Of a stretch of DNA of 64,000 nucleotides, positions 23,083 to 40,870 are shown piece after piece. Where the stretch lies: the NCBI GenBank assembly GCA_000310025.1, contig FN649728.1:4077077-4141076 (forward strand), given 5' to 3'. The translations under genes were made by a program, and so were the position numbers. Positions within the stretch are counted from its first letter, which is position 1. The number at the start of each line of letters is the position of its first letter. Origin of the DNA: Ectocarpus siliculosus. Lineage: Eukaryota > Sar > Phaeophyceae > Ectocarpales > Ectocarpaceae. The notes beneath the pieces were generated by a model, which saw only the letters and a list, made by a program, of their open reading frames with translations, had not been told where the DNA came from and searched no databases.

Positions 23083-23379
23083 TGTTATGGAGGAGCAGAG
23101 AAATAAAAGAGGGAAGGGAGCAAGCTCGTTGCTCCTGGCTTCGGGTACTCATAGTTGTTGTTTGATCTCTTGTTTAGCCTTCTTAGACCAGGTCCGCTCA
23201 GCGCCCACTCGGAGAGTGAGGGAGCGGGGCTGGGATTTTGATCTTCCTTCAAGCTACTTCAATACCCCTCAACGTCGCCAAATATCCATATCCAAAGAAA
23301 ATTCAAAATATCCAATAAGCGCTCATAAAACGTTCATGAAACGCTCGTACAATGCAAATACACTAGTTGCTCCATTACA
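23083..23379 (-). repeat. Gypsy LTR (3' LTR of the element)
   Basis: On the minus strand it starts TGTAATGGAGCAACTAG and ends CCATAACA. A G-rich stretch (AGGGTGGGCTAA) just inside it is the likely polypurine tract. It is nearly identical to 40573-40870. Confidence 0.9.
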
Positions 23380-23764: not shown

Positions 23765-25860
23765 TCAAAGCACAGATCCAGATGGGGCAACAGCTAGCTG
23801 TGCCACAACGCCTGGTGTTCGCGACGTAACGCCATCATCCGTGGAAGGGTTGGTCAAACCACGAGTACGGTGTTTTTGCAAGCACCAAGAACCACAAGGA
23901 GCATCCAAAACCGTGGAGTAACTATACTCCGGGAGAGAAAGCTTTCGAGAGCCGGGGGTGTCCAAAAATCGAACAATGTACTGGCCTGTTACGAAACCAC
24001 TAATCTGCCCAAGCCACCAAAGTCCATCCAAAGCTTTGTACCAAATGTGGGCTCCGACAGGCAAAACAGAAACAGAGAAGCGAGCCAACCAAATGTCACG
24101 CGAAACCAACTCGTACCCAGGAGCAATGAAACGTTCGGCCTGATTCCGAGCAAGTTCTCGGTCGGCCGAAGCTATCCGAGCATTACGGTAAGCTCGGTTT
24201 CCTTGTACGCGCTGACTAGCGTTACCAGACCAGTAAAGCAGAATGTGTTTTCTGTACTCCTGCAAATCAGACTCCCTTTCCCACGACGGTGTCCACAAAC
24301 CAATCCAATGGGTCAGGTACAAGACAGCTACCACACCACCGCGTCCACGTACAATTTGGTGTCCTGAAGTATTCTCAACATCCAGACGACTAGACTCCGC
24401 TAAAATATCATCAGCAGTCAAATTATACGGGGGAGACTTGTTACTATACGAGTGCAAAACATATTTCGACAGATTGGCCGGCATATACTTCGGCAGGTCA
24501 TCCGTGTCGTATGGGTTGGTACACGGTTTGCACCGCAAAACGGAGACACGGTTGCGGGATTCTGGTCCCAGCATGTCTGACGGCAGGTCCAGGTAGAGAA
24601 GTTTGCGCTCCACAGGTTTTCCATCCGGTGAATCCTCCGCTTTGGCCGGGCCAACAGCAAGGATTCTATACGGTCCGGTGTAGTTGAGCGAAAGCTTCGC
24701 TTTGAGCACCGAATCATCGGTGCGTTTCCGCACACCCTGCCGAATAGTAGCGGCAGAGTTGTAGACCCAAGCCCAACCACCACCTTCGTATTTCGGGATC
24801 TGACGCAGACCGTCCAACAGTGCAGAGTTACGACGTTCGACACGCGACACCGTAATCGCATGTTGTTCCCGCACCAACGCGTAAGCTCGTCTCTGGCGTT
24901 CCACCGCAAGATTGCAGAAAGCGAGCTGGTCTCGATCCAAACTTTGATGGCCACCCACGCTAGGGTGGTCCAAAACAGAAAGCGGGAGACGGGGCAACCG
25001 TCCAATATGCACTTCATTCGGCGCCAAACCTGTGGCGGTGTTTACCGAGTTGTTGTATGCAAACTCGACATGGGGAAGATGGACGTCCCAATCGTCCTGA
25101 CGCTCATTGACCACAACAGCAAGCATTTGAGCCATGGTGTGGTTAACACGCTCGGCCCCACCGTTAGTTTGGGGGTGGTACGAACTGGTGGTGACTTTCT
25201 TGATCTTCATCAGCTCGTAAATAGCCATGGATAACTTGGAACAAAATTGCATACCGTTATCCGAAAGAAGAGTCACCGGACAACCCCACAACGCCACGTA
25301 GCGGTTGACGAAAATATTAGCCGTTTAGCGGTAAATTCCGCCTTGGTAGTGGCATACATATCCGCCCGTCGACTGAAACGGTCCGTAAACAAAAGTATAT
25401 ATGCATTCCCACGGGACGTGACCGGCAATGGCCCAAAAAAATCGACGCACACTACAATACCCGGCCCATTCGGGAGGGGCAGAGTGGGCGTAGGCCAACG
25501 ATACGTTTGCCGGGAAGTCTTGCGCGCTTGGCAAATTAAGCAATGCCGAAGCCACCAACGAACGGACAAAATCCATCCCAATCCACCAGAAAAATCGCTC
25601 CAACATACGTAAAGTCCGAGCGGTGCCCAGGTGAAAAGACGCGGTGGCGTGACATGCTTGTAGGACCCAAGGTCGCAATAGCATAGGCACGTGTATGCGT
25701 GGAGTCTTCGAAGGCGGGAGGCGAGTGATACGCCCGCCCGAACTACCGAGAGGCAGTGGGGCAGAATTTCGCACCAACAATCGCGTACCATCGTCTGTAA
25801 TGTGTAGGCATGTTTTAGATGCGAGGGCGACAACATCAGACAACGCCGGCCGTCGCGCAC
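23765..25860 (-). CDS. Gypsy integrase region with chromodomain and a second Tudor/Agenet-like module
   Basis: The integrase catalytic core is recognised by CVDFFGPLP, LLSDNGMQFCSKL and SSYHPQTNGGAERVNHTMAQ, which hold the D, D and E of the DDE triad; a zinc-binding H-x3-H segment (QACHATASFHLG) lies just upstream in the element. After the core comes a GPY-like stretch (YTGPYRIL). Then a chromodomain (about 24225-24420) reads VRGRGGVVAVLYLTHWIGLW and PSWERESDLQEYRKHILLYW. About 60 residues later a third module (about 23900-24056) reads GAHIWYKALDGLWWLGQISG and YIVRFLDTPGSRKLSL, which resembles a Tudor/Agenet barrel. Integrase joins the cDNA to chromosomal DNA; chromodomains of chromoviruses steer it to marked chromatin. 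This region is part of a broken element. Confidence 0.8.
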
Positions 25861-28800
25861 AGGGCAAGCAATCCCAGAATGTATCCGGCAAAACCGCCGG
25901 GAATCCCAAAGACAAAAAATTTATAGCCGCGACACACTCAATTTCTGACAGCTGTTCTCGGGCCCAATCGGCATGCGAGAATGTATGCACACAGTCGCGG
26001 AGGTGAGCTTCCTCAGCGGCCGTGGGCGGCACCACGGAAGTCGCAGGGCTAGTACTTGCGGGCGACAACACTGGCGGCATGGGCGCCGCGGGCGGCGGTG
26101 GCGCCGGGGTGGCGGCAGCAGGCGCGGGCGGCGGCGGCTGCAATTCAGCCGGCGCCGGAGAAGGCAGCGGGCCAGAAGTAGGGCTACCCACGGTTCTCGC
26201 AGACCGCGCAGCACCGGTCGACCGGCCCGGCGTTCGAGGAGGCCGCGGCGTTCTGGGCACCACAACGGCCCGTGGTTGTTTCGGAAAATAATTGGGACGG
26301 CTGTGAGCCAGGCCCGAGGCCGAATTCGTTCTCGCCCGAGTACGAGAAGAAATCAGAGGGCCACGCGAAAACGACAGGACAGCTGAGGAGGTTCCGACGG
26401 TGGACGAGGGAACGACGTCTGGCTCCGCAGAAACGGAAGCCGGAGGAGGTCCATCGGGCACAGAACTCTCGGGGGCTGCATCGCAAACGACAGCGAAAAC
26501 ACCAGACGGCGAAGATTTCGACGAGTCAACTACGGAGAAGGGCGACGGAGCCGGCAGGACCATTTGTGGCCCAAAACGGCGGAAGTCCCCAAAGCCATCC
26601 TCCGTCAGAGGCGCGTGTGCCAACGCGTCTCGTTGATCGTCAATGTCAAGCCCACCCAAGCCGATGTTCGGCGTCGAACTAGAGTGATAACTCCGTCCGC
26701 ACGCACGAATGAGATACACGCCCGCGGCGTCATCGACTGCGATACTGGCGTCACCGTGTCTATCCGCGTCGGTTGCCGGCAAGGGCAACCGCGAAAGAAA
26801 ATCCGGAATGGCGTTGGCAGTGCTATTGCGGTAGACAAGGGTGTAATTGAACGAGGAAAGGAACTCGAGCCAACGTTGGACGCGGGCGTTGTGTTCACCC
26901 ACCTTGACGATGCTCTCCACAGCCTTGTGATCCGAATAAATCAGAAAGTGCGTAGACCAAAAATAACCGCGTAAGCGTTTAATTGCCCACACGATACTGC
27001 CAGCTTCCAAGTCGAGCACTGTCCAATTGCGCTCGGATTCGAGCGTAGCGCGGCTAACGAACAGAATGGGACGGATTGAACCATCGGCCTGTTCCTGTTC
27101 AAGGGCCGCACCAAAACCATCGATACAGGCGTCACAGCAAAAGCCGAAGAGGGCGGCTGCCATCTGCGACAGCGTCCCAATCCGGGAAAGCCAAAACCGG
27201 AGGTTCTGACAGTTTCGCCAAGAGTTCTTTGACGGTATCCGCCTCTGGCGTAAAACAAAACTTCGCGTCCTTACGCAAAAGGTCTGTGAGTGGTTTCACG
27301 CGCATGGCCAAACCCTTGATGAATTTGCGGCAATACGAAAGCCCACCCAGCAAGGAACGCAGCTTTTTGACGTTGTTAGGCAGCGGCATTTTTGTGAGGG
27401 CTTCGACCTTATCGGCACGAGGACTAACACCCGCAGGGGAGATTGTGTAGCCTAAATAAACAGCCTCCTTAGCGCCGACGCGACTCTTGAAAGGAGAAAG
27501 CTTGAGGTTGTACTTGCGCAAACGCTCCAAAAACAACCGTATGTTGGCGACATGGTGGGTGGGGTCGGCGTCAAACACAATCACATCGTCCAGGTATGCA
27601 AGCACATGGTCCAGACCTTTAACCACTTCGTTGATGACCATGGTGAACCACAGCGGTGCCACGGAGCTTCCCTGAGGCATACGGAGCCACTCGAAAAGTT
27701 GCGTGGGCGTACCAAACGCCGTAAGCTGAACCGTGTCCTCTTCGACGGTGATTTGGTGGAAAGTGGAGTTAAGATCGAAAATGGAAAACACCTTGCCCTT
27801 GTGCAGGGAATCGATGATGTGGTCAACTCGCGGCTGCGGTTGTTGACCAAGGCTGCACAATTTGTTAAGCTTTTTGTAGTTCACGGTCAAACGCAGATTG
27901 CCGTCCTTTTTAGGCATGACAACCAGAGGGCTCGCCCACGGCGATTGCGAGTGCTGAATAAGACCGGCAGCAAGGTATTGATCGAGAATTGCATCGACCT
28001 TTTTCTCCACCAGAGGGTTGAGCCTATAGGGACGCGAGGCCAACGGTTTCGTGCCCGGGGGCACTTCCAAGCGAAACGGTTTCACGGAACAGCAACCGAA
28101 ATCGGACGGTGACCGCGAAAACACATCCGAAAAGTCACACTGCACATCCGCCAGGCTGTCGATGGCTTCCGGGGTCCAACCCGAGTCATGTAAATCAAAA
28201 GTCACATCGTGCAAATGTGCAGGCAAACGTTGCCACAACTCGCGAAAACTCACTCGCTGCGCTTCTGAGAGGTGTTCCAACAGATCCGGTGGCGGCGGTT
28301 TCGGCGGCAGTGAGGCCGCGGGAGAATCCGAGATCTCCGGATCCGCAACCGGGATGTTTGAATGCAAAGAATTCACGCGAGACGGCGGTTCATCCGCGAA
28401 ACGGGCTGGCGGCGGAGGGTCACTCAACCCAACACCCTCGGCCGTCTGCGGTGTAGGATCAATCGACGCAAGCGGAATCTGCACAAGTGGGGCAGTCGCC
28501 ACTCCAAGCACCTCACCTGGCTCCAGCTCGGCGCACCCTGTCAATGGGATGTGTTGAGGCCCGTCCGAAACAAACGCGTCCGACGCCGAGAGGCCGCCGT
28601 GTTTCGGTAAAAATGTGACAAGATAGTTGCCGGTGAGAGCGGGGGTGCCAGAGTTGCGAATGAGGTTCACCCTCGTCAAAGTGGGTTTATCGGAAAGGGA
28701 GACACCCTTCCTGCCGGCGTACCGCAGGAAGTAAGATGCCCCGGGGGCGGAGGGTCCAGCGACATACGCGGAAGCTCCCGCCGCAAAATCCGATGACAGA

Positions 28801-28931
28801 GAAAGTTTCTCCATAATGCGTCCACTTGCCGACCGCATGGGCAAAGTAGTGGACAAACGAGAGTTAAAAACCATCCCAACTATCACGTCCAAGAAGGAGG
28901 GCGTGACCCATGGCGGCAGCTGGGACAACAT
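25325..28931 (-). CDS. Gypsy reverse transcriptase and RNase H region
   Basis: Reverse transcriptase motifs in order on the minus strand: VEKKVDAILDQYLAAGLIQ, SPWASPLVVMPKKDGNLRL, FDLNSTFHQITVEEDTVQLT, LRMPQGSSVAPLWFTMVINE and AYLDDVIVF (the catalytic YLDD, at about 27581-27600), then LGYTISPAGVSP and LLGGLSYCRKFIKGLA. RNase H follows with FCCDACIDGFGAALEQ, SERNWTVLDLEAGSIVWAI and LIYSDHKAVE. A long Pro/Ala-rich linker separates RNase H from the integrase zinc-binding segment. The order RT-RH-INT is that of Ty3/gypsy. This belongs to the element that holds the NADAR domain, and I treat it as a fossil. Confidence 0.85.
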
Positions 28932-30819
28932 ACACCCAGACCGCTAACGAAGCGGTGGCACTATCACCATAAAAAAATTGAACGGACAGCCGCACGGATG
29001 AGGTGGTTTCAAGGGCATTGCCAGAGCCAAAACCACCCCACTGCCGAACGGGCACCGAACGACGACTGTGGACGGATGCAGCTCCTGACGCCTCCATGGC
29101 TTCAAGGAAAGCATCACTAATGAAAGATGAAGGTGAGTCCGAGTCCAAAAGGGCTACACCAGGCGCTGTACACACGGCTCCTGTACCACTATGCACGCGG
29201 ACTCGCGTCGTTGAGGTATCGCAATCAACTAAAACATCACCGCTCACCAAATCTGGGCCGTGTTCCGCCAATAGCGGCGGTGGGGAAGCGGCGGCTTCGC
29301 GAAAAGCAGTCGAGGCAATATGCAGCACCTGTTTCGAGTGGTCCGCGGGCGTGTTGGCTGGCACGTCCAGCGGGCCACGCGTGTCCTCGGGCGAGGAATC
29401 ATTGGCCGAAGAGTCCTCACCCGGGGGCGCAATTTCGTGGGTAGTGGGACACACGGGGGCAGGTTGCCCCGAGTGTTCAGGGCGTAAAGGCTTATTGGGT
29501 TCGACCGGGCGCACACGCAGAAGCGTGCGCGTCCCAACAAGCGCTTTGCCCAAAAGGTTTTTACCAGTCCACTTGGAGGGCGACGCCGCACGCGGATCGA
29601 AGGCATCAACACCAATGCCCCACAATCCGTCATAAGGACTGGCCTCCGCTATCTGTCTATCGCCCGTAGCCAACAAACGTTCACGCGCGTCAGCATTTTG
29701 GGCGAATTTTGCATACAAAAGCGAAAAGACAACATCCTCGCGCCGGAGTTCCCATAGAGCATGGTCAAAACCGCGTACCTTGCGACCAAGGGACTTGTGC
29801 TCTCTCGGGTCGGAGGTAGCCATGATTTTGGCATAAGCGGCATCATCGCCGAAAATGCGGGCTTTCTCCGCCATCATGAACTGTTCGCCGCACACGTAGC
29901 GAATGCCATGAACCGAGAACTCACAGGGCGTCCAGTTAGACAGAAACGACGGCGGTTTCCAAAAGAGGAAAACCTCATCGTTATAGTATTCCTGACAACC
30001 GTCAAAAACAGGGGCCTGCCGCGCGGGTGCGCTTACCTTCCCCGAAGAAATATCATCAAGAGAAATGGCACCGGCAACCGGCAGGACAATCTGGGTGCCG
30101 CCCGAAGGCGGGCCGGATTGTGGGTTACGAGGAGAGGCAGGCAAGAGCGGTGAACCAGCCGCAGAAGCGTGCGAAACCAAGCGGTCTACGCGGGCGTGTT
30201 CGCGCAAAACGTCGGCGTAGGCCTGTTCATTAAAAGCGGCCTTCATCGCGGGCGCTCGACCAACATGGTCAGCGGCCGCGGGAGGCTCGGGACCGCTATT
30301 TCGTGACAAAGAACATGAACCTTCCGATTTGGGGAAACCGTTACTTGCGCTCGGCAACGGCGGTGCAGTCAGCACCGTGCGACGTTGGTGGTCCGTAGAG
30401 GAACGTCGCGAGGGGTCCGGAGGGGGCGCGGTGGGTACAAGCGTACTCGAGCCACCGCGGCGGGCCTGCGGTTGTCCCGAAGGTTCCTGTGCTCCAACGT
30501 GGTTGACGAGACCACCCGGAGCCGCCGAAACGGTGGGAGAAGCCGGAGCCATGCCTCCGGGGGGCGTAGACATCGGGGCGAGCGTCCGTGAGACACCCGA
30601 AGTCTGGTCGGCCCCTCGCCCACACCACAAGACTGTATTCGGCGCCGACGAGTCACGTCGGTCATCCAAAACAGGCTGTAATGAGGCGTGAGGCGACATC
30701 TGAGAAATAAAAGGTTGGGAAACTAACATAGGTGAACCCGAAGGCGTCTGTGTGATACGAACATCTTGGGAACTAGTCGTACAGCGCACACCCGGTGCTG
30801 TTGACGGCGATGTGTGCAA
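28864..30819 (-). CDS. Gypsy frame with a NADAR (YbiA-like) domain followed by the aspartic protease
   Basis: This 651-codon frame lies between gag and the reverse transcriptase. Residues 1-280 are low-complexity Ser/Pro-rich. Residues about 282-436 (29512-29976) form a NADAR/DUF1768 domain: FWKPPSFLSNWTPCEF, YVCGEQFMMAEKARIFGD, SLGRKVRGFD, FAQNADARERLLATGDRQ, IAEASPYDGLWGIG and WTGKNLLGKAL follow the family order with its conserved E, W and D positions. Known NADAR proteins are N-glycosidases: YbiA/RibX cleaves riboflavin intermediates, and NADAR partners of DarT toxins remove ADP-ribose from guanine in DNA. Residues about 556-651 are a retroviral-type protease (VALLDSDSPSSFISDAFLEA). The domain assignment is strong; its job in the element is unknown. 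Confidence 0.88.
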   Translation of the reverse strand: MHTSPSTAPGVRCTTSSQDVRITQTPSGSPMLVSQPFISQMSPHASLQPVLDDRRDSSAPNTVLWCGRGADQTSGVSRTLAPMSTPPGGMAPASPTVSAAPGGLVNHVGAQEPSGQPQARRGGSSTLVPTAPPPDPSRRSSTDHQRRTVLTAPPLPSASNGFPKSEGSCSLSRNSGPEPPAAADHVGRAPAMKAAFNEQAYADVLREHARVDRLVSHASAAGSPLLPASPRNPQSGPPSGGTQIVLPVAGAISLDDISSGKVSAPARQAPVFDGCQEYYNDEVFLFWKPPSFLSNWTPCEFSVHGIRYVCGEQFMMAEKARIFGDDAAYAKIMATSDPREHKSLGRKVRGFDHALWELRREDVVFSLLYAKFAQNADARERLLATGDRQIAEASPYDGLWGIGVDAFDPRAASPSKWTGKNLLGKALVGTRTLLRVRPVEPNKPLRPEHSGQPAPVCPTTHEIAPPGEDSSANDSSPEDTRGPLDVPANTPADHSKQVLHIASTAFREAAASPPPLLAEHGPDLVSGDVLVDCDTSTTRVRVHSGTGAVCTAPGVALLDSDSPSSFISDAFLEAMEASGAASVHSRRSVPVRQWGGFGSGNALETTSSVRLSVQFFYGDSATASLAVWVYVVPAAAMGHALLLGRDSWDGF

Positions 30820-30837: not shown

Positions 30838-33800
30838 TCAGTTACCCCGCGAGTGCGGGGTTCCTGAATTTCGAGTGTACGGAGTTCCAGCTACGGCGGC
30901 GGGCGCCGGGGTCGCGGCGGCGCCTACGGCCGGCGCCGGAGGTGGTGCGTGTGTAGTTGAGTTACGTTTCCCAGAGCGGCGGCCGTCGCCCTGTGTATGG
31001 CCGCTGCTCTTACCCGGGCCATTTTTATTGTGTACACGCGGGCGGTGCGACTTCATGCGGCTTTGCCAACGTTGAAAAACCTGAACGCTATCAGCATGCG
31101 AAGCAATGGCCGGGTTTAAGAGGCCGGTGTAATTGGTGAAAGCATACGGGCAAGTTTTGAGGCTGTGGCCCGCCTGCCCGCAGTTGAGACATTGGCCAGA
31201 AAATCGCCGCAGAGCTTGCGCTCGGTCGGCAGGGGTCAACAGCGGTGTAAACAAAGGGGGGTCCATCTTAGCCATACTTGCCACAACGCTGTAAACAAAG
31301 CCGTAGTGACCACGCAACGGCCAGCAGTCGTAGTCCTGCTCAAATGGACATGTGTTATCGGACGGCACAGGGTCGATAGCCATCACCCCGGCGGGAAATT
31401 GTGTTCCCGGCGACCACGCGGACGGCTGCAGCGGCGGCGGCGGTGGCGGCCGCTGCTGCCCCACGGTCGCAGTCATGGCTCGTGTGGGCGCCGATAAAAA
31501 CCCAGAGGTGACAGTGGTAAAATAACGGTCGCCGTTGCAGGCGGGCGAGTGTTTTAGTGCTTCCTCCGACGACAAAGCATCCCAAAGCTCATCCTGATCA
31601 CTAAACACCACGTTGTGGAGAATCTTCTCTTTCAACGGCAAAGACGAGAGAACATTCGGGTACTGCTCCAACAAAGCGTCCCGAAGCGCACGCTGTACCA
31701 TGCGCAGATCCGGCGCGAAAGCCCTATGCGAGGCCAACTCCGACATTGCTAACGCCTTAAACTTCGTAACGAATTTGCTGTACGGCGTGCCGTTGGGCAC
31801 ACCAAAATCCTGCAGCTTGTCGATGCCCCGGTTGAAACCTTTCGGTTCCCACTCATCCGCGAGAAGTTTGAGCAGCCGACGGTATGCCGAAGGCCCCGAC
31901 TTGTCCTTCGTCTCCAAGAAACGTTTCACCTGAGAAAACGAAGAATCCACCAATTCGCGGGTTGCGGCATTGGCGCCTTGAGGGTTCGAAATGGCCATGA
32001 GGACACGCTTGTGAAAGGGGGCATACCATCCAGCCACCCATGAGGGCGACTTGATGGTCTGCTTGCCGGAGGGATCGGCGGCCGACAGAATTTCAGCCAA
32101 CACACTTTCGGTCGAACGAGAGAAGGCAGAAAATTCTGCCGGGGGAAGCGGCACTACCGCATACAATTCCTTCACTTTAAGCTTGCCGTATCCTTTGCGC
32201 ACGCTGAGGGCGTACGCCTCTGCGGCGGCAACGGCGTTTGCATCAAGCTGTGCCTGCGCGGTGCGTGCACCGGCAGACGACAGGGGCAGTGCCCGGTCAT
32301 CAGCGGAATCGCTGGCGGCCGCGTGCACGGCCGGCAGCGGTGGCCTCGCTACCGACACCGCGATAGCCGAGACCGGTGGTTCCTGTGGCATAACACGTTG
32401 GGAGAGCGTCGGTACCACCCTGGAAACATGTGTCGTCTCCGTTTTCACAACGGAGGCGGGGGGCGGTACCTCTGTTTTCACAGCGGCAAATGATGTATGC
32501 GATGGCAAAGCGGAGGCTACTGACGGTGGCTCTGACTTCACTAACGGCACGGGCTGTTGTGGCATCACCGGCGGCTGCGGCACCGGCGGCACCGGCGGCA
32601 TCAGCGGTACCGGCGGCTGCAGCACCGACGGCGGCGGCGTCGGCAGCTGCTGCGGCGCCGGCGCCGGCGGCACCGACAGCGGCGACATCGGCGACGGCAG
32701 TCTCGACGACGGAACGTCAAAAGCCGCTACCGACGGCGACGCCGTCGCCGACGGTTGCCGCTGCTGGGGAAAACTCGACAAAGACATGTGGTGCAATAGC
32801 TGTCGTGCACGTTCTAGCTCAGGCTCGGGGTGGTCAACGATGGGTTGGGTCGCTTTGACCGACGTTTCAGCGATGTGAGGCGGCAAAGAACTGACCGGGG
32901 GCATGGCGGCCGCAGACATTTGGGCAGAAGCGACAGTAATCGGGTCCTGCATTGTCACCGGCCACTGTTGACCCCCAGGACCCATGAACGGCGGCTGCAA
33001 CGAGTACGGGTTTCCAAGCGCATCTACGGCCCACGGCTGCTGGAAAAACGGCACATTTTGTCCTGCGATACCATACTGTACTTGCCTGCTATTCGTCGGA
33101 CCATAGTAGGAGAGATGGGTGTGCCCGCCACGGTCAGAAGCGTCTCCCCCCCCGGCATTCCGGCGGCTACCTCCCCCGTCATTCCGGTGGCTACCCCCGC
33201 CGGCACCCGGATGAGCATCCGTGCGTCCGCGGGAGTCATGTCCTCGCGAACGGCCTGCATCCTGCCTGAGGTATTTCTGTGTATGTGGGCGGTCCTGAGT
33301 ACGAGAGGAGTGGTAGGACCCAGCAGGCGCAGAAGTGCCCCACCTGGAAGGTTCCGAGGGTTGCCCCCCCATTTGGGAGCGGCGACCCCCCGAGCCCGCC
33401 GAACCAGACCTCGAACGTGCAGAAGTGTCCACATCCTCCCTCGAACGAGCGGAGATGCCCACATCCGCCGCCCGCACACTACGCAGATCAATCACCAGCC
33501 GCTCAAGCCGCCGACGTTTCTTGGACGACCAAAGGGGGCTGTAAAGCAGACGTCCAACCGTCTGATCACGCAGAGAAGCTAAATCGAACGAGATCTTGTA
33601 CACTAGCGCAAGGCCAGCATCCTTCGCTCCAGACGTCGCAAAAATGCTGGTGTTGACGAACTCGATTAATCCGTCAATGGTGAGACCTAGAAGTCTAGTG
33701 TCTAGAGAACGAGCCTGGAAATCACCTGCTTCAGAAGACGATGAAGACGAAGAAGACGAGCTGGACGAAGAGGTGCTCGAAGAGGACGAGCTGGACGAGT

Positions 33801-34956
33801 TTTTGCGAGGTTTACGCCGTTTCCTGACACGTCCCACTGGTCCACCGGCTGAGATGGTAGTGATCTCTGAGGAACTCCGACTGCGAGTCTTCGTGCCTCC
33901 CTCTTCAACAGGCAGGGTGTTGGTCGCAACCGCAGCAGCATCACTGTCGAAATCAGTCGTATCGGCCGCAGCCACAGCAGCAGAGGCTACTGCAGCAGCA
34001 GCAGCATTGACAGGCGCAGCATCTACACCAGTTGCAACAGGCGCGGCAACAAATACAGGATTCGCAACAGCAGACGCATCAGCTACACCTGTCGCAACAG
34101 AAGCGGCAACAGGTGCAGCCGCAACAACAGGTGGCGCGGCAGCTACTGCAGTAGCTGCAGCAGGAGCAGCGGCAGCTGCAACAGGAGCTGCAACGGCAGC
34201 AGCAGGAGCAGCGGCAGCTGCAACAACAGGAGCTGCAACAGCAGCAGCAGGGGCAGCTGCGGCAGCAGCAGAAACTGCAACGGTAACGTCAGAAAATTCC
34301 GGGAAATTTTCTGCGGCTTGCAAACGTGCTAACTGCTTTTCGAGATCACGGGCCGTCCCAGAAGCAGATGCCATCCATGTCGTGTGCTCACGCTGTGCTT
34401 CCGCGTCTTCTGCCAACAACGCGGTGTACCGCTGAGCCTCCAGCCGTTCCTCTTCTTCCCGTGCTTTGCGCAGACGCTCCGATCTGGCACGCGCAGCCGC
34501 CTCTGCCAAGGCAATTGCTTGTTTCAAACGAGCATGGTGCTCGCGAGCTTTCTGCTGGTCTGTCTCTCTTCGAGACGCACGTGCCTCGAGTTCGGCGGTT
34601 GAAAGCCGAGGGACAGCCACAGCGGCGGTCTCCTGAGAGACAGCGGCAATCTGACGGGAGATGCCGCCGGAACCAGTACCCTTACTGGCTCCAGGCGACA
34701 CCGCGGTACTCGTACTCGGTGTTCCGAGTTGACCCCCAGCGGAGAGAGACAAAGTAGGTGTGCCACCACCATCATTCTTCTCCCTCGGTGCCGGGAGCGT
34801 GCCTGCAGCAGGAGAGTTCCCCTGCTCTCCTGCCGTGACCGGGCTGACAGGCGTGTCAGCCTGAAGGTCCTCCTTCAGTTTCGCCATCCCAGCGGGATCT
34901 GCGGTGGTGTCGAAATCAACCGACATGCATGCACCCTGTGTTGCCATGGGTGACAC
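30838..34956 (-). CDS. Gypsy gag, full-length copy
   Basis: A 1372-codon frame. The N-terminal half is an Ala/Pro-rich low-complexity region with long GCA/GCC codon runs, a Glu/Arg-rich helical stretch (ARSERLRKAREEEERLEAQR) and a Ser run. The C-terminal third has the capsid-like part (RELVDSSFSQVKRFLETKDK; MVQRALRDALLEQYPNVLSS) and one CCHC zinc knuckle (CLNCGQAGHSLKTC, at about 31149-31190), which binds the element's RNA. It ends just before the NADAR-protease frame. The size is large for a Ty3/gypsy gag because of the low-complexity expansion. Confidence 0.85.
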   Translation of the reverse strand: MSPMATQGACMSVDFDTTADPAGMAKLKEDLQADTPVSPVTAGEQGNSPAAGTLPAPREKNDGGGTPTLSLSAGGQLGTPSTSTAVSPGASKGTGSGGISRQIAAVSQETAAVAVPRLSTAELEARASRRETDQQKAREHHARLKQAIALAEAAARARSERLRKAREEEERLEAQRYTALLAEDAEAQREHTTWMASASGTARDLEKQLARLQAAENFPEFSDVTVAVSAAAAAAPAAAVAAPVVAAAAAPAAAVAAPVAAAAAPAAATAVAAAPPVVAAAPVAASVATGVADASAVANPVFVAAPVATGVDAAPVNAAAAAVASAAVAAADTTDFDSDAAAVATNTLPVEEGGTKTRSRSSSEITTISAGGPVGRVRKRRKPRKNSSSSSSSSTSSSSSSSSSSSSSEAGDFQARSLDTRLLGLTIDGLIEFVNTSIFATSGAKDAGLALVYKISFDLASLRDQTVGRLLYSPLWSSKKRRRLERLVIDLRSVRAADVGISARSREDVDTSARSRSGSAGSGGRRSQMGGQPSEPSRWGTSAPAGSYHSSRTQDRPHTQKYLRQDAGRSRGHDSRGRTDAHPGAGGGSHRNDGGGSRRNAGGGDASDRGGHTHLSYYGPTNSRQVQYGIAGQNVPFFQQPWAVDALGNPYSLQPPFMGPGGQQWPVTMQDPITVASAQMSAAAMPPVSSLPPHIAETSVKATQPIVDHPEPELERARQLLHHMSLSSFPQQRQPSATASPSVAAFDVPSSRLPSPMSPLSVPPAPAPQQLPTPPPSVLQPPVPLMPPVPPVPQPPVMPQQPVPLVKSEPPSVASALPSHTSFAAVKTEVPPPASVVKTETTHVSRVVPTLSQRVMPQEPPVSAIAVSVARPPLPAVHAAASDSADDRALPLSSAGARTAQAQLDANAVAAAEAYALSVRKGYGKLKVKELYAVVPLPPAEFSAFSRSTESVLAEILSAADPSGKQTIKSPSWVAGWYAPFHKRVLMAISNPQGANAATRELVDSSFSQVKRFLETKDKSGPSAYRRLLKLLADEWEPKGFNRGIDKLQDFGVPNGTPYSKFVTKFKALAMSELASHRAFAPDLRMVQRALRDALLEQYPNVLSSLPLKEKILHNVVFSDQDELWDALSSEEALKHSPACNGDRYFTTVTSGFLSAPTRAMTATVGQQRPPPPPPLQPSAWSPGTQFPAGVMAIDPVPSDNTCPFEQDYDCWPLRGHYGFVYSVVASMAKMDPPLFTPLLTPADRAQALRRFSGQCLNCGQAGHSLKTCPYAFTNYTGLLNPAIASHADSVQVFQRWQSRMKSHRPRVHNKNGPGKSSGHTQGDGRRSGKRNSTTHAPPPAPAVGAAATPAPAAVAGTPYTRNSGTPHSRGN

Positions 34957-36015: not shown

Positions 36016-36281
36016 TGTTATGGAGGAACAGAAAAATATAAGGGAAGGGAGCAAGCTCGTTGCTCCTGGCTTCGGGTACTCACAGTTGTTGTTTGATCTC
36101 TTGTTTAGCCTTGTTAGACCAGGTCCGCTCAGCGCCCACTCGGAGAGTGAGGGAGCGGGGCTGGGATTTTGATCTTCCTTCAAGCTACTTCAATACCCCT
36201 CAACGTCGCCAAATATCCATATCCAAAGAAAATTCAAAATATCCAATAAGCGCTCATACAACGTTCATGAAACGCTCGTAC
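36016..36281 (-). repeat. Internal Gypsy LTR
   Basis: It matches the outer LTRs from their CATAACA end as far as the ACGCTCGTAC motif at 36281, where the sequence changes to unrelated DNA (36282-36764). No target duplication accompanies it. Confidence 0.85.
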
Positions 36282-36764
36282 GAGTTTGAGCACCAGCTTC
36301 GGCCTCCTGTGACGGACAAGAACACCGGAATTGTCTCGCCATCCGAACAACAGTTGGGCAGTTGAAAAAAAGAGGGTCCGGTCCGCCGAAGATTTGTTTT
36401 TTATGTTCCGGCAGTGCAAACCTCATGGCGCCTCAAGTACGGTTCCGTAGGGAATTGCAAATCGCGACCCCTCCCCGACTTTGAGTATAGCTTCCACCTC
36501 CTGCCGCGGATGAGACCGACGTCAAACCCTAGATTTTTGTCTGTCTGTGTCGCCATGTCGTCGCCATCCACGAACAGCAGTTGGAGAGTCACAATAAAGA
36601 GGGTCCCCTTCGCCACCAAGAAAACAGTGTTTTTTTTCGATTCTTCTACAGCTGGATATGATGCTACCATGTATCGGGTCTGGCTGTGGTGGAGCTTGAG
36701 GAATATAGGGTCTACGGCAGCGTATTCTATGCGAAGCGTTAACACCTTCCTCGCGTAACGATGC
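36282..36764. other. Unassigned segment between the internal LTR and the gap
   Basis: Unrelated to any part of the Gypsy element. It has an internal imperfect repeat: TCGCCATCCGAACAACAGTTG with AAAGAGGGTCC at about 36340-36380, and TCGCCATCCACGAACAGCAG with AAAGAGGGTCC at about 36560-36610. No gene recognised. It may be a piece joined by the assembler. Confidence 0.6.
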
Positions 36765-36864
36765 NNNNNNNNNNNNNNNNNNNNNNNNNNNNNNNNNNNN
36801 NNNNNNNNNNNNNNNNNNNNNNNNNNNNNNNNNNNNNNNNNNNNNNNNNNNNNNNNNNNNNNNN
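36765..36864. other. Assembly gap (100 N)
   Basis: Exactly 100 N. The left flank is unassigned sequence; the right flank enters gag in mid-gene. The order of pieces across this gap is unproven. Confidence 0.95.
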
Positions 36865-36904
36865 TGTGACTCTGACTTTATTAACGGCACTGGCTGTTGT
36901 GGCA

Positions 36905-39745
36905 TCACCGGCGGCTGCGGCACCGGCGGCACCGGCGGCACCGGCGGCACCAGCGGTACCGGCGACTGCAGCACCGATGGCGGCGGCGGCGGCAGCTGCT
37001 GCTGCGGCGGCGGCTGCGGCACCGGCGGCCTCGGCACCGGTGGCGGCGGCACCGACGATTGCGGCTGCGGCGGCTGCGGCACCGGCGGCGTACCTGCGGC
37101 ATCGGCACCGACGGCTGCAGCACCGGCCGCGGCGGCATCTGCAACGGCGGTGCCGGCGGCGACGGCACCGACAGCGGCGACATCGGCGACGGCAGTCTCG
37201 ACGACGGAACGTCAAAAGCCGCTACCGACGGCGACGCCGTCGCCGACGGTTGCCGCTGCTGTGGAAAACTCGACAAAGACATGTAATGCAATAGCTGTCG
37301 TGCACGTTCTAGCTCAGGCTCGGGGTGGTCAACGATGGGTTGGGTCGCTTTGACCGACGTTTCAGCGATGTGAGGCGGCAGAGAACTGACCGGGGGCATG
37401 GCGGCCGCAGACATTTGGGCAGAAGCGACAGTAATCGGGTCCTGCATTGTCGCCGGCCACTGTTGACCCCCAGCACCCATGAACGGCGGCTGCAACGGGT
37501 ACGGGTTTCCAAGCGCATCTACGGCCCACGGCTGCTGGAAAAACGGCACATTTTGTCCTGCGATATCATACTGTACTTGCCTGCTATTAGTCGGACCATA
37601 GTAGGAGAGATGAGTGTGCCCGCCACGGTCAGAAGCGTCCCCCCCCCCGGCATTCCGGCGGCTACCTCCCCCGTCATTCCGGTGGCTACCCCCGCCGGCA
37701 CCCGGATGAGCATCCGTGCGTCCGCGGGAATCATGTCCTCGCGAACGGTCTGCATCCTGCCTGAGGTATTTCTGTGTATGCGGGCGGTCGTGAGTACGAG
37801 AGGAATGGTAGGACCCAGCAGACGCAGGAGTGCCCCACCCGGAAGGTTCCGAGGGTTGCCCCCCCATTTGGGAGCGGCGACCCCCCGAGCCCGCCGAACC
37901 AGACCTCGAACGTGCAGAAGTGTCCACATTCTCCCTCGAACGAGCGGAGATGCCCACATCCGCCGCCCGCACACTACGCAGATCAATCACCAGCCGCTCA
38001 AGCCGCCGACGTTTCTTGGACGACCAAAGGGGGCTGTAAAGCAGACGTCCAACCGTCTGATCACGCAGAGAAGCTAAATAGAACGAGATCTTGTACACTA
38101 GCGCAAGGCCAGCATCCTTCGCTTCAGACGTCGCAAAAATGCTGGTGTTGACGAACTCGATTAATCCGTCAATGGTGAGACCTAGAAGTCTAGTGTCTAG
38201 AGAACGAGCCTGGAAATCACCTGCTTCAGAAGACGATGAAGACGAAGAAGACGAGCTGGACGAAGAGGTGCTCGAAGAGGACGAGCTGGACGAGTTTTTG
38301 CGAGGTTTACGCCGTTTCCTGACACGTCCCACTGGTCCACCGGCCGAGATGGTAGTGATCTCTGAGGAACTCCGACTGCGAGTCTCCGTGCCTCCCTCTT
38401 CAACAGGCATGGTGTTGGTCGCAACCGCAGCAACATCACTGTCGAAACAAGTCGTATCGGCCGTAGCCACAGCAGCAGAGGCTACTGCAGCCGCAGCAGC
38501 ATCAGCACTAACAGGCGCAGCATCAGTTGCAACAGGCGCGGCAACAAATACAGGATTTGCAACAGCAGACACATCAGCTACACCTGTCGCAACAGAAGCG
38601 GCAACAGGTGCAGCCGCAACAACAGGTGGCGCGGCAGCTACAGCAGGAGCTGCAGCAGGAGCAGCGGCAGCTGCAACAGGAGCTGCAACGGCAGCAGCAG
38701 GAGCTGCAGCAGCAGGAGCTGCAGCAGGAGCAGCGACAGGGGCTGCAGCAGGAGCAGCGACAGCTGCAACAGGAGCTGCAACGGCGGCAGCAGGGGCAGC
38801 GGCGGCAGCAGCAGAAACTGCAACGGTACCTTCAGAAAGTTCCGGGAAATTTTCTGCGGCTTGCAAACGTGCTAACTGCTTTTCGAGATCACGGGCCGTC
38901 CCAGAGGCAGATGCCATCCATGCCGTGTGCTCACGCTGTGCTTCCGCGTCTTCTGCCAGCAACGCGGTGTACCGCTGAGCCTCCAGCCGTTCCTCTTCTT
39001 CCCGTGCTTTGCGCAGACGCTCCGATCTGGCACGCGCAGCCGCCTCTGCCAAGGCAATTGCTTGTTTCAGACGAGCACGGTGCTCGCGAGCTTTCTGCTG
39101 GTCTGTCTCTCTTCGAGACGCACGTGCCTCGAGTTCGGCGGTTGAAAGCCGAGGGACAGCCACAGCGGCGGTCTCCTGAGAGACAGCGGCAATCTGACGG
39201 GGGATGCCGCCGGAACCAGTACCCTTACTGGCTCCAGGCGACACCGCGGTACTCTTACTCGGTGTGCCGAGTTGACCCCCAGCGGAGAGAGACAAAGTAG
39301 GTGTGCCACCACCATCATTCGTCTCCCTCGGCGCCGGGAGCGTCCCTACAGCAGGAGAGCTCCCCTGCTCTCCTGCCGTGACCGGGCTGACAGGCGTGTC
39401 AGCCTGAAGGTCCTCCTTCAGTTTCGCCATCGCAGCGGGATCTGCGGTGGTGTCGAGGTCAACCGACATGCATGCACCCTGTGTTGCCATGGGTGACACA
39501 TGTGTGTTGTCCCCAGGGGGAAAAACAGACGACAGAACAGCAGCAGCGGCATCGTCCGCAATAGGAAAAGAGGACGGCGATACAACATCATCAGCGGGCG
39601 AGTCACTGATCGAGTGACTGGTCGAGACCCAATCGAGGAGAGAGTGCCGACCCTTGCCATCCAAACTCTTCACAGCAGCGAGGGCAAAAGGCATGAGCTG
39701 ATCTTGAAAACACCAAATGCCAAATGCACGATGCAGCAGAAACAA
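36905..39745 (-). CDS. Gypsy gag, second partial copy
   Basis: It corresponds to the N-terminal two thirds of the gag at 30838-34956, with the same Ala-rich, Glu/Arg-rich and Ser-rich regions but different lengths of the alanine-codon repeats and scattered substitutions. It is followed on the minus strand by the gap, and preceded by its own pre-gag frame (39603-40400) and LTR (40573-40870). Confidence 0.8.
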   Translation of the reverse strand: MFLLHRAFGIWCFQDQLMPFALAAVKSLDGKGRHSLLDWVSTSHSISDSPADDVVSPSSFPIADDAAAAVLSSVFPPGDNTHVSPMATQGACMSVDLDTTADPAAMAKLKEDLQADTPVSPVTAGEQGSSPAVGTLPAPRETNDGGGTPTLSLSAGGQLGTPSKSTAVSPGASKGTGSGGIPRQIAAVSQETAAVAVPRLSTAELEARASRRETDQQKAREHRARLKQAIALAEAAARARSERLRKAREEEERLEAQRYTALLAEDAEAQREHTAWMASASGTARDLEKQLARLQAAENFPELSEGTVAVSAAAAAAPAAAVAAPVAAVAAPAAAPVAAPAAAPAAAAPAAAVAAPVAAAAAPAAAPAVAAAPPVVAAAPVAASVATGVADVSAVANPVFVAAPVATDAAPVSADAAAAAVASAAVATADTTCFDSDVAAVATNTMPVEEGGTETRSRSSSEITTISAGGPVGRVRKRRKPRKNSSSSSSSSTSSSSSSSSSSSSSEAGDFQARSLDTRLLGLTIDGLIEFVNTSIFATSEAKDAGLALVYKISFYLASLRDQTVGRLLYSPLWSSKKRRRLERLVIDLRSVRAADVGISARSRENVDTSARSRSGSAGSGGRRSQMGGQPSEPSGWGTPASAGSYHSSRTHDRPHTQKYLRQDADRSRGHDSRGRTDAHPGAGGGSHRNDGGGSRRNAGGGDASDRGGHTHLSYYGPTNSRQVQYDIAGQNVPFFQQPWAVDALGNPYPLQPPFMGAGGQQWPATMQDPITVASAQMSAAAMPPVSSLPPHIAETSVKATQPIVDHPEPELERARQLLHYMSLSSFPQQRQPSATASPSVAAFDVPSSRLPSPMSPLSVPSPPAPPLQMPPRPVLQPSVPMPQVRRRCRSRRSRNRRCRRHRCRGRRCRSRRRSSSCRRRRHRCCSRRYRWCRRCRRCRRCRSRR

Positions 39746-40572
39746 AATCTAGAAAGAAAAAATCGTGATGCGAATGCGAAGAGCGAATTCTTTCGCCCGA
39801 CAAAGTGGCCGTGCGCGGCCTTCTCTTCGATCGACCGGCCTTAACCAAACCGCGGTTCAGCAGACGTAACACACGGTCCGAAACCGGTGCCGGCAGAATG
39901 TCCTCCGGCCACAAATCGGTGGAGAGAAGCCCCCGATCGAAATGCTCAAAAACGGCACCTTTTTCGCGAATTTCTGAGATCCCTGTGAACGATTGTGCAA
40001 ACGAGCGCAACCCACTACAACCAGACGGCAGCAGATCATGCCAACAAAGCGGCCATTCAGCAGCCTGTCGCCGCCATGCGGGGGGGTAGCCAAGCGCGTG
40101 AGAAGCGAAAGGCTTTCCCCCGAAAGCAGGCAGAAAGGTGTCGCCTTGGGAGCAAAGGGGCATGTCTTTTGTAACATGCACGTCATGCACAAGGTCGAAG
40201 CATTCATGGATGGAGAGCAATATCCTACGCGAGCATGCTTGCCGAGCAAATGAGGAAAGAAAGGCCAGCGTCCACCAAGCCGTCCCTTGGTGAACACAAA
40301 GCCATGCGAGGGGAAGCCCTCGCGCATGAGGCCTGTACGCCCGTCGCGCGCACAACCGGAGCAAACGCCCGTCGCGCACACGACCGGAGCAAACGCCCAC
40401 ACGTCAAAACAAAAAGTGCCCCACCGAGTGAGTCAGAGAGAGCAAAACCGTGCCCTCTCTAAAACCAGGAAACTAAATAAAATCGAGAAGACCTAACTAA
40501 ATGCGAGACGTTCACGCGAACGATGAGCGCCGAAGCGAAGGACCGGTGTCCAAATGCCAGACGACGCCACAA

Positions 40573-40870
40573 TGTTATGGAGGAACAGAGAAATAAAAGA
40601 GGGAAGGGTGCAAGCTCGTTGCTCCTGGCTTCGGGTACTCATAGTTGTTGTTTGATCTCTTGTTTTAGCCTTCTTAGACCAGGTCCGCTCAGCGCCCACT
40701 CGGAGAGTGAGGGAGCGGGGCTGGGATTTTGATCTTCCTTCAAGCTACTTCAATACCCCTCAACGTCGCCAAATATCCATACCCAAAGAAAATTCAAAAT
40801 ATCCAATAAGCGCTCATACAACGTTCATGAAACGCTCGTACAATGCAAATACACTAGTTGCTCCATTACA
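40573..40870 (-). repeat. Gypsy LTR (5' outer LTR)
   Basis: Nearly identical to 23083-23379, at the other end of the insertion. Sequence continuing the interrupted old Copia (GCACTTTCCGAACTCTCG) starts directly after the ATTG duplication at 40871-40874. Confidence 0.9.

Follow-up and report, generated by a model that had tools for sequence, protein, structure and literature searches.

A 64,000-nucleotide stretch of the Ectocarpus siliculosus genome (contig FN649728.1, positions 4,077,077 to 4,141,076), here called the window, contains on its minus strand a Ty3/gypsy retrotransposon with a NADAR domain between Gag and the protease (PR). Comparisons among copies of the element indicate that this domain is kept under strong selection, and its residues and modelled fold suggest that it is very probably a functional enzyme. 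The presence of NADAR in Ectocarpus Gypsy elements is already published: the main text of PMC12477816 (2025) describes a YbiA-family domain at the N-terminus of Pol in Gypsy-12_Ec32, reports its possible horizontal origin, and suggests that it processes RNA intermediates. The sequence-only reading of the window had allowed for earlier reports of NADAR in retroelements, and this paper justifies its caution. Besides PMC12477816, no paper naming NADAR in transposable elements was found in a literature search that covered most records by listing, with supplements and most subscription papers outside its range. The present analysis adds evidence that the domain is maintained as an enzyme and that other long reverse transcriptase (RT) proteins carry NADAR.

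Identity, conservation, and linkage of the element NADAR

A profile search of the 28864-30819 frame matched the window domain to PF08719 with 157.8 bits against a curated cut-off of 35.1 (E 3.7e-46), covering profile positions 2-163 of 163, and the identity proposed in the sequence-only reading stands. The modelled domain has the YbiA fold of the NADAR superfamily, and Escherichia coli YbiA is 30% identical to it. In P0001 numbering, the window NADAR keeps E34, K41, E114, D119, and W122, and these five residues, catalytic or of the pocket, are identical in 30 of 30 copies (the window copy, L001-L009, and L014-L033). E34 and K41 are the active-site glutamate and lysine (E88/K95 of E. coli C7) and align with E and K of the Phytophthora nicotianae NADAR (PDB 8BAU). 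E114, which also aligns with a glutamate of 8BAU, lies in the model strand 111-114 and corresponds to the last-strand glutamate that marks the YbiA subfamily. The DarT1-associated BC4488 subfamily has an aspartate at this place and a DarT neighbour; the element has the glutamate, and a genome search for DarT gave no match.

The 189-Mb genome (492 contigs) was searched in six frames with exons not joined. At least 150 NADAR matches, all above the cut-off, were obtained (150 of 230 candidates scored), which rules out a single-copy accident, the case that the sequence-only reading had named as counting against its proposal. The chlorophyll-binding protein family Chloroa_b-bind gave 87 matches in the same genome. 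With L009 as the query and E up to 1e-60, the RT search gave at least 138 matches (138 of 529 candidates scored). Among the matches listed, a NADAR lies 0.5-6 kb upstream on the same strand of 114 of the 138 and is absent for 24; for RT matches in frames of at least 1800 amino acids (aa), the proportion is 31 of 34. The first of the three long-frame exceptions, C11, does have a NADAR, which is frameshift-broken and outside the listed matches. The second (C26:253916) was considered as a NADAR-less sister family and rejected, being 96-97% identical to the NADAR-bearing L008 and L001, with a likeness that ends abruptly upstream of the protease, as in a cut-off copy. In the third, C396, the RT lies at base 1300 of the contig. 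The remaining 21 RT matches without a listed NADAR are in shorter frames, and 38 of the 150 listed NADAR matches have no listed RT downstream.

The NADAR is not a host gene adjoining the element. In L009, a single open frame runs through NADAR, PR, RT, RNase H, and integrase (the integrase part read by eye), and among 21 copies checked, L009 and 19 others have NADAR in one frame with the PR and RT motifs, whereas the window copy does not. The position between Gag and protease proposed earlier was borne out in the window frames and in further copies.

Selection was estimated from ten copies of five families in which the NADAR and RT domains are both open. Left out were L001 (in-frame stop), L030 and L031 (shifted NADAR middle), L033 (divergent), L002-L008 (seven copies with NADAR sequence only), and nine near-identical copies. 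The ratio of nonsynonymous to synonymous divergence (dN/dS, or omega) under GY+F3X4 was 0.094 for NADAR and 0.040 for RT. These values are rough, since most between-family pairs are saturated in dS. Fixing omega at 1 with kappa at 2 cost 183.5 and 443.1 log-likelihood units, respectively. The comparison across natural copies that had been suggested for the window element points to purifying selection. Between families, NADAR dN is about 0.17-0.48, and dS is saturated or above 2. Identity along Pol, averaged over ten pairs of eight sequences in L009 Pol numbering, reaches 0.54-0.57 across the three windows of NADAR (361-540), 0.06-0.20 for the preceding linker, and 0.27 directly after the domain. 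It is 0.46-0.54 at 601-900, which includes the protease, and 0.61-0.74 at 1021-1440 around RT; beyond about residue 1500 it is lowered because some of the eight sequences stop there.

Expression, origin, and other NADAR-bearing proteins

Reading upstream from NADAR, the first stop in the same frame is the UGA that closes the Gag frame in 18 of the 30 copies; the Gag frame is open for at least 106 codons before it in 17 of these and for 41 codons in L028. In 8 more copies, in which a later lesion separates the junction from the NADAR frame, the same junction was recognized by likeness to a family member. The junction was not found in L032, L001, and L008 (L033 lay outside the search). At all 26 junctions (the window copy, L002-L007, L009, and L014-L031), the UGA is followed by C and Pol stays in the Gag frame; coming from five families, these are at most five independent observations. 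The codon after the UGA is CAC, CTT, CAT, CAG, or CTC, and a constant C with a varying residue fits selection on the stop context. Expression of Gag-Pol by readthrough of the UGA-C stop is likely, judged from these sequences. A UGA between gag and pol of Candida Tca2, with possible readthrough, is the subject of PMC2194720.

The top four of the 80 best bacterial loci are Myxococcota, 51-54% identical to the element NADAR. The tree used 37 hand-picked bacterial rows of the 80, three of them with stops written as X; P0128, P0129, and 43 bacterial loci (mostly gut metagenome-assembled genomes and near repeats) were left out. The 21 Ty3 rows, which include the short fragments P0002 and P0062 that we counted as Ty3, form one group (Shimodaira-Hasegawa-like approximate likelihood ratio test [SH-aLRT] 89), which clusters with Nannocystis, other Myxococcota, P0004, P0006, and P0026 (SH-aLRT 86, inner order unresolved). 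P0124 of Ectocarpus sp. CCAP 1310/34 groups with L017, L018, and L029. The donor of the NADAR was likely bacterial, and a Myxococcota-like donor phylum is a lead.

Named relatives of the element proteins include records of Ectocarpus sp. CCAP 1310/34 and Pylaiella littoralis. The long NADAR-bearing database proteins P0119-P0124 are Ty3 proteins of the window-element lineage, and P0121 has the Pfam domain order of the Ty3/gypsy type. P0122 (EukProt g13940.t1) is a gene model in which a NADAR-bearing Ty3 Pol is fused at its N-terminus to a gag_pre-integrase/integrase piece of Ty1 type. P0125, a further relative, has no NADAR by precomputed Pfam, in a record that starts inside the protease region and is therefore uninformative on loss.

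Three other long proteins are more distant. P0128 (2991 aa, ENA) is a Ty3 polyprotein with NADAR (E 3.2e-22) before RT, a 3'-5' exonuclease, and a weak chromodomain match; its RT-RNase H part shares only 26% identity with L009, and its NADAR stands on a very long branch, so the shared NADAR-before-RT order may reflect either common or separate capture. P0127 (2839 aa, ENA) is a giant polyprotein with RVT_1 (E 2.1e-15) and NADAR (E 3.7e-45), of which the RT part is weakly similar to L009 (25% over 146 residues) and the NADAR is 44% identical; holding it with the Ty3 group gave a marginal approximately unbiased (AU) test p of 0.039. P0129 (3333 aa, JGI) is a giant polyprotein with NADAR (E 5.4e-32), a C5 DNA methylase, and no RT match; its branch is long and falls within the Ty3 group, and holding the Ty3 rows alone without it gave an AU p of 0.1. 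By eye, the C-termini of P0127 and P0129 look like tyrosine recombinases; neither C-terminal piece matched a Pfam family, and the label "DIRS-like" is not applied. Together, these proteins suggest more than one capture of NADAR by retroelements, with long branches for P0128 and P0129 and a marginal test for P0127. Separately, P0126 (1555 aa) joins NADAR to ADP-ribosylglycohydrolase (PF03747), PfkB (PF00294), and helix-turn-helix domains by precomputed Pfam; this combination of domains related to ADP-ribose is unusual. In viral contigs, 501 stretches encode NADAR relatives.

Possible roles of the element NADAR

The best single reading, to which we give a probability of roughly 0.45, is that the NADAR is packaged with Gag-Pol and erases ADP-ribose adducts, its activity and substrate being predicted. 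NADAR relatives remove ADP-ribose from guanine. A YbiA-type NADAR, most probably bacterial, would have been captured between Gag and protease by an ancestor of the brown-algal Ty3 lineage and then inherited together with RT and kept as an enzyme, as sequence, selection, and model suggest. With Pol in frame with Gag and a single UGA-C codon between them, readthrough would yield NADAR as part of a minor Gag-Pol fraction, and the domain may reach the virus-like particle together with protease, RT, and integrase. Inside the particle, its substrate would be ADP-ribose (or a related ribosyl group) attached by an N-glycosidic bond, most likely to guanine in element RNA or in cDNA under synthesis, and hydrolysis of these adducts would keep reverse transcription from being blocked, as suggested by the activity known for the nearest homologue of solved structure. 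It is plausible that the ADP-ribose removed is placed by a host defence. For eukaryotic RNA viruses, the text of PMC9503650 puts forward NADARs as a counter to ADP-ribosylation by the host.

Several points weigh against a packaged eraser of adducts. According to the text of PMC11125620, NADARs outside DarT operons are not efficient on DarT1 adducts, so guanine-linked ADP-ribose need not be the target. The genome gave no DarT match (1 of 14 control genomes was positive), one Macro piece (controls 8 of 14), and only four PARP-profile pieces (controls 0 of 14, which makes this control uninformative); thus, no host writer of nucleic-acid ADP-ribose was identified in a search that may miss host enzymes because exons were not joined. 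In L030 and L031, 2 of the 30 copies and of different families, the frame is open and the middle third of NADAR is shifted in about the same stretch, by chance, sequencing error, or tolerated loss. Omega is approximate, with most between-family pairs saturated in dS by the Nei-Gojobori method; most copies were chosen for long open frames, which biases against stops and not against missense changes; and the within-family pair L009/L024 has a NADAR dN/dS of 1.2 from very few changes. The four folded stretches downstream of the junction (that of L016 started about a dozen bases past the stop) gave no consistent support for an RNA structure as a readthrough signal, with z-scores of 0.42, 0.50, and -0.68, which are not unusual, and one of -2.21, so that readthrough is only inferred. 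In the 63-row tree that includes P0129, the branch that sets the Ty3 rows apart also takes in P0129 (84/95).

It is also conceivable, if somewhat unlikely, that the NADAR is an active N-glycosidase on small molecules or RNA ends, such as ADP-ribose derivatives of RNA repair, NAD-derived signals, or damaged nucleotides, and not on adducts of element nucleic acid. Intermediates of the riboflavin pathway are NADAR substrates, and for viral NADARs the text of PMC9503650 proposes a preference for soluble ADP-ribose derivatives or RNA-processing by-products. The shared catalytic residues and the DarT search without a match fit this explanation as well, and it is close to the RNA-intermediate suggestion of PMC12477816. 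However, placement in Pol would set the enzyme beside nucleic acid, and PMC9503650 argues in its text that polyprotein NADARs of eukaryotic RNA viruses primarily target macromolecular ADP-ribosylation. A non-catalytic module that binds RNA, cDNA, ADP-ribosylated protein, or Gag and aids packaging or targeting is quite unlikely: a conserved pocket could bind without cleaving, and in SNA-3, a trans-splicing protein of nematodes, the catalytic residues of YbiA are missing from one of the three NADAR domains, but the five residues are invariant among the element copies, and altering such residues in the remaining two SNA-3 domains impaired function (text of PMC9303266). A passenger without a role, conserved only because its copies are young, is very improbable, since the near identity of copies within a family and the two shifted NADARs that would suit it are contradicted by the low omega at high divergence between families and by flanking linkers that lost their likeness where NADAR did not.

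For the role of eukaryotic NADARs, a long terminal repeat (LTR) lineage that keeps one under strong selection, with intact catalytic residues and probable Gag-Pol stoichiometry, allows a concrete test of whether nucleic-acid ADP-ribosylation limits eukaryotic reverse transcription. The wider proposal, that brown-algal Ty3 elements, P0128, P0127/P0129, and, by report, oyster Tx1 elements captured NADAR independently and carry it in their particles to remove ADP-ribose from retroelement nucleic acid, is unlikely to hold as a whole; if true, eukaryotes would use nucleic-acid ADP-ribosylation as a defence against retrotransposition, one that we have not seen described.

The window copy and known systems

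The window copy has the Ty3/gypsy order Gag, PR, RT, RNase H, and integrase in its frames. RT and RNase H/integrase are off the NADAR frame, which leaves Pol broken and NADAR itself intact. Its LTRs (297/298 bp) are 98.3% identical with TG...CA ends, and ATTG at both outer flanks is a possible target-site duplication of only 4 bp. The partial second LTR and the leader-gag repeat at 36016-40870 (spacing about 4.55 kb) adjoin a 100-N gap at 36765-36864 and may be a true duplication or an assembly effect. The protease motif (28864-29514) reads LLDSDS in the window copy versus LLDSGS in L009.

Features of the element copy in the 64-kb window (window positions)
Feature	Position	Strand	Remarks
5' LTR	40573..40870	-	LTR pair comparison; outer flank starts ATTG
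Second LTR copy, incomplete	36016..36281	-	97%, first 29 bases missing; starts repeated leader and gag stretch
Gag frame	30838..34956	-	1372 aa from GTG; zinc-knuckle pattern; Pfam scan without match
UGA stop closing Gag	30838..30840	-	Same frame as NADAR, C next; inferred readthrough site
Pol N-terminal frame, 651 codons	28864..30819	-	Low-conservation linker, NADAR, linker, aspartic protease motif
NADAR domain (PF08719), uninterrupted	29515..29964	-	Residues 286-435 of the 651-codon frame; profile match
Reverse transcriptase (RVT_1)	27441..27914	-	E 1.3e-31; frame differs from NADAR-PR frame
RNase H (RT_RNaseH)	26849..27139	-	E 1.6e-26
Integrase zinc-binding domain (Integrase_H2C2)	25571..25690	-	E 5.2e-7
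Integrase core and C-terminal frame	23765..25297	-	Pfam without match; by-eye likeness to integrase part of L009 Pol
3' LTR	23083..23379	-	Outer flank ends ATTG

Among known systems, the Myxococcota NADARs, including the myxobacterial YbiA described in the text of PMC11125620 as the antitoxin of YarT, fall in the same tree cluster as the Ty3 NADARs but are free-standing bacterial proteins. E. coli YbiA (PDB 2B3W) is an N-glycosidase of riboflavin intermediates. The P. nicotianae NADAR is 34% identical to the element domain; it is from an oomycete, is not DarT1-associated, and is not known here as part of a retroelement. The polyprotein NADARs of eukaryotic RNA viruses (PMC9503650) are likewise embedded in a replicase-bearing polyprotein, whereas they belong to RNA viruses of animals and are likened by description only; the words "retrotransposon," "retroelement," and "transposon" are absent from the main text of that paper. 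The oyster Tx1 long interspersed nuclear element, with NADAR in ORF1, is also a retroelement but a non-LTR one, known here from the text of PMC12477816. In the main text of the latter paper, unlike here, the terms "readthrough," "stop codon," "synonymous," "catalytic," "active site," and "myxococc" are absent, and "purifying" occurs once, about other elements. The Gypsy-12_Ec32 lineage is also Ty3 with NADAR at the Pol N-terminus, and the database proteins P0003, P0011, and P0124 of Ectocarpus sp. CCAP 1310/34 carry the same domain.
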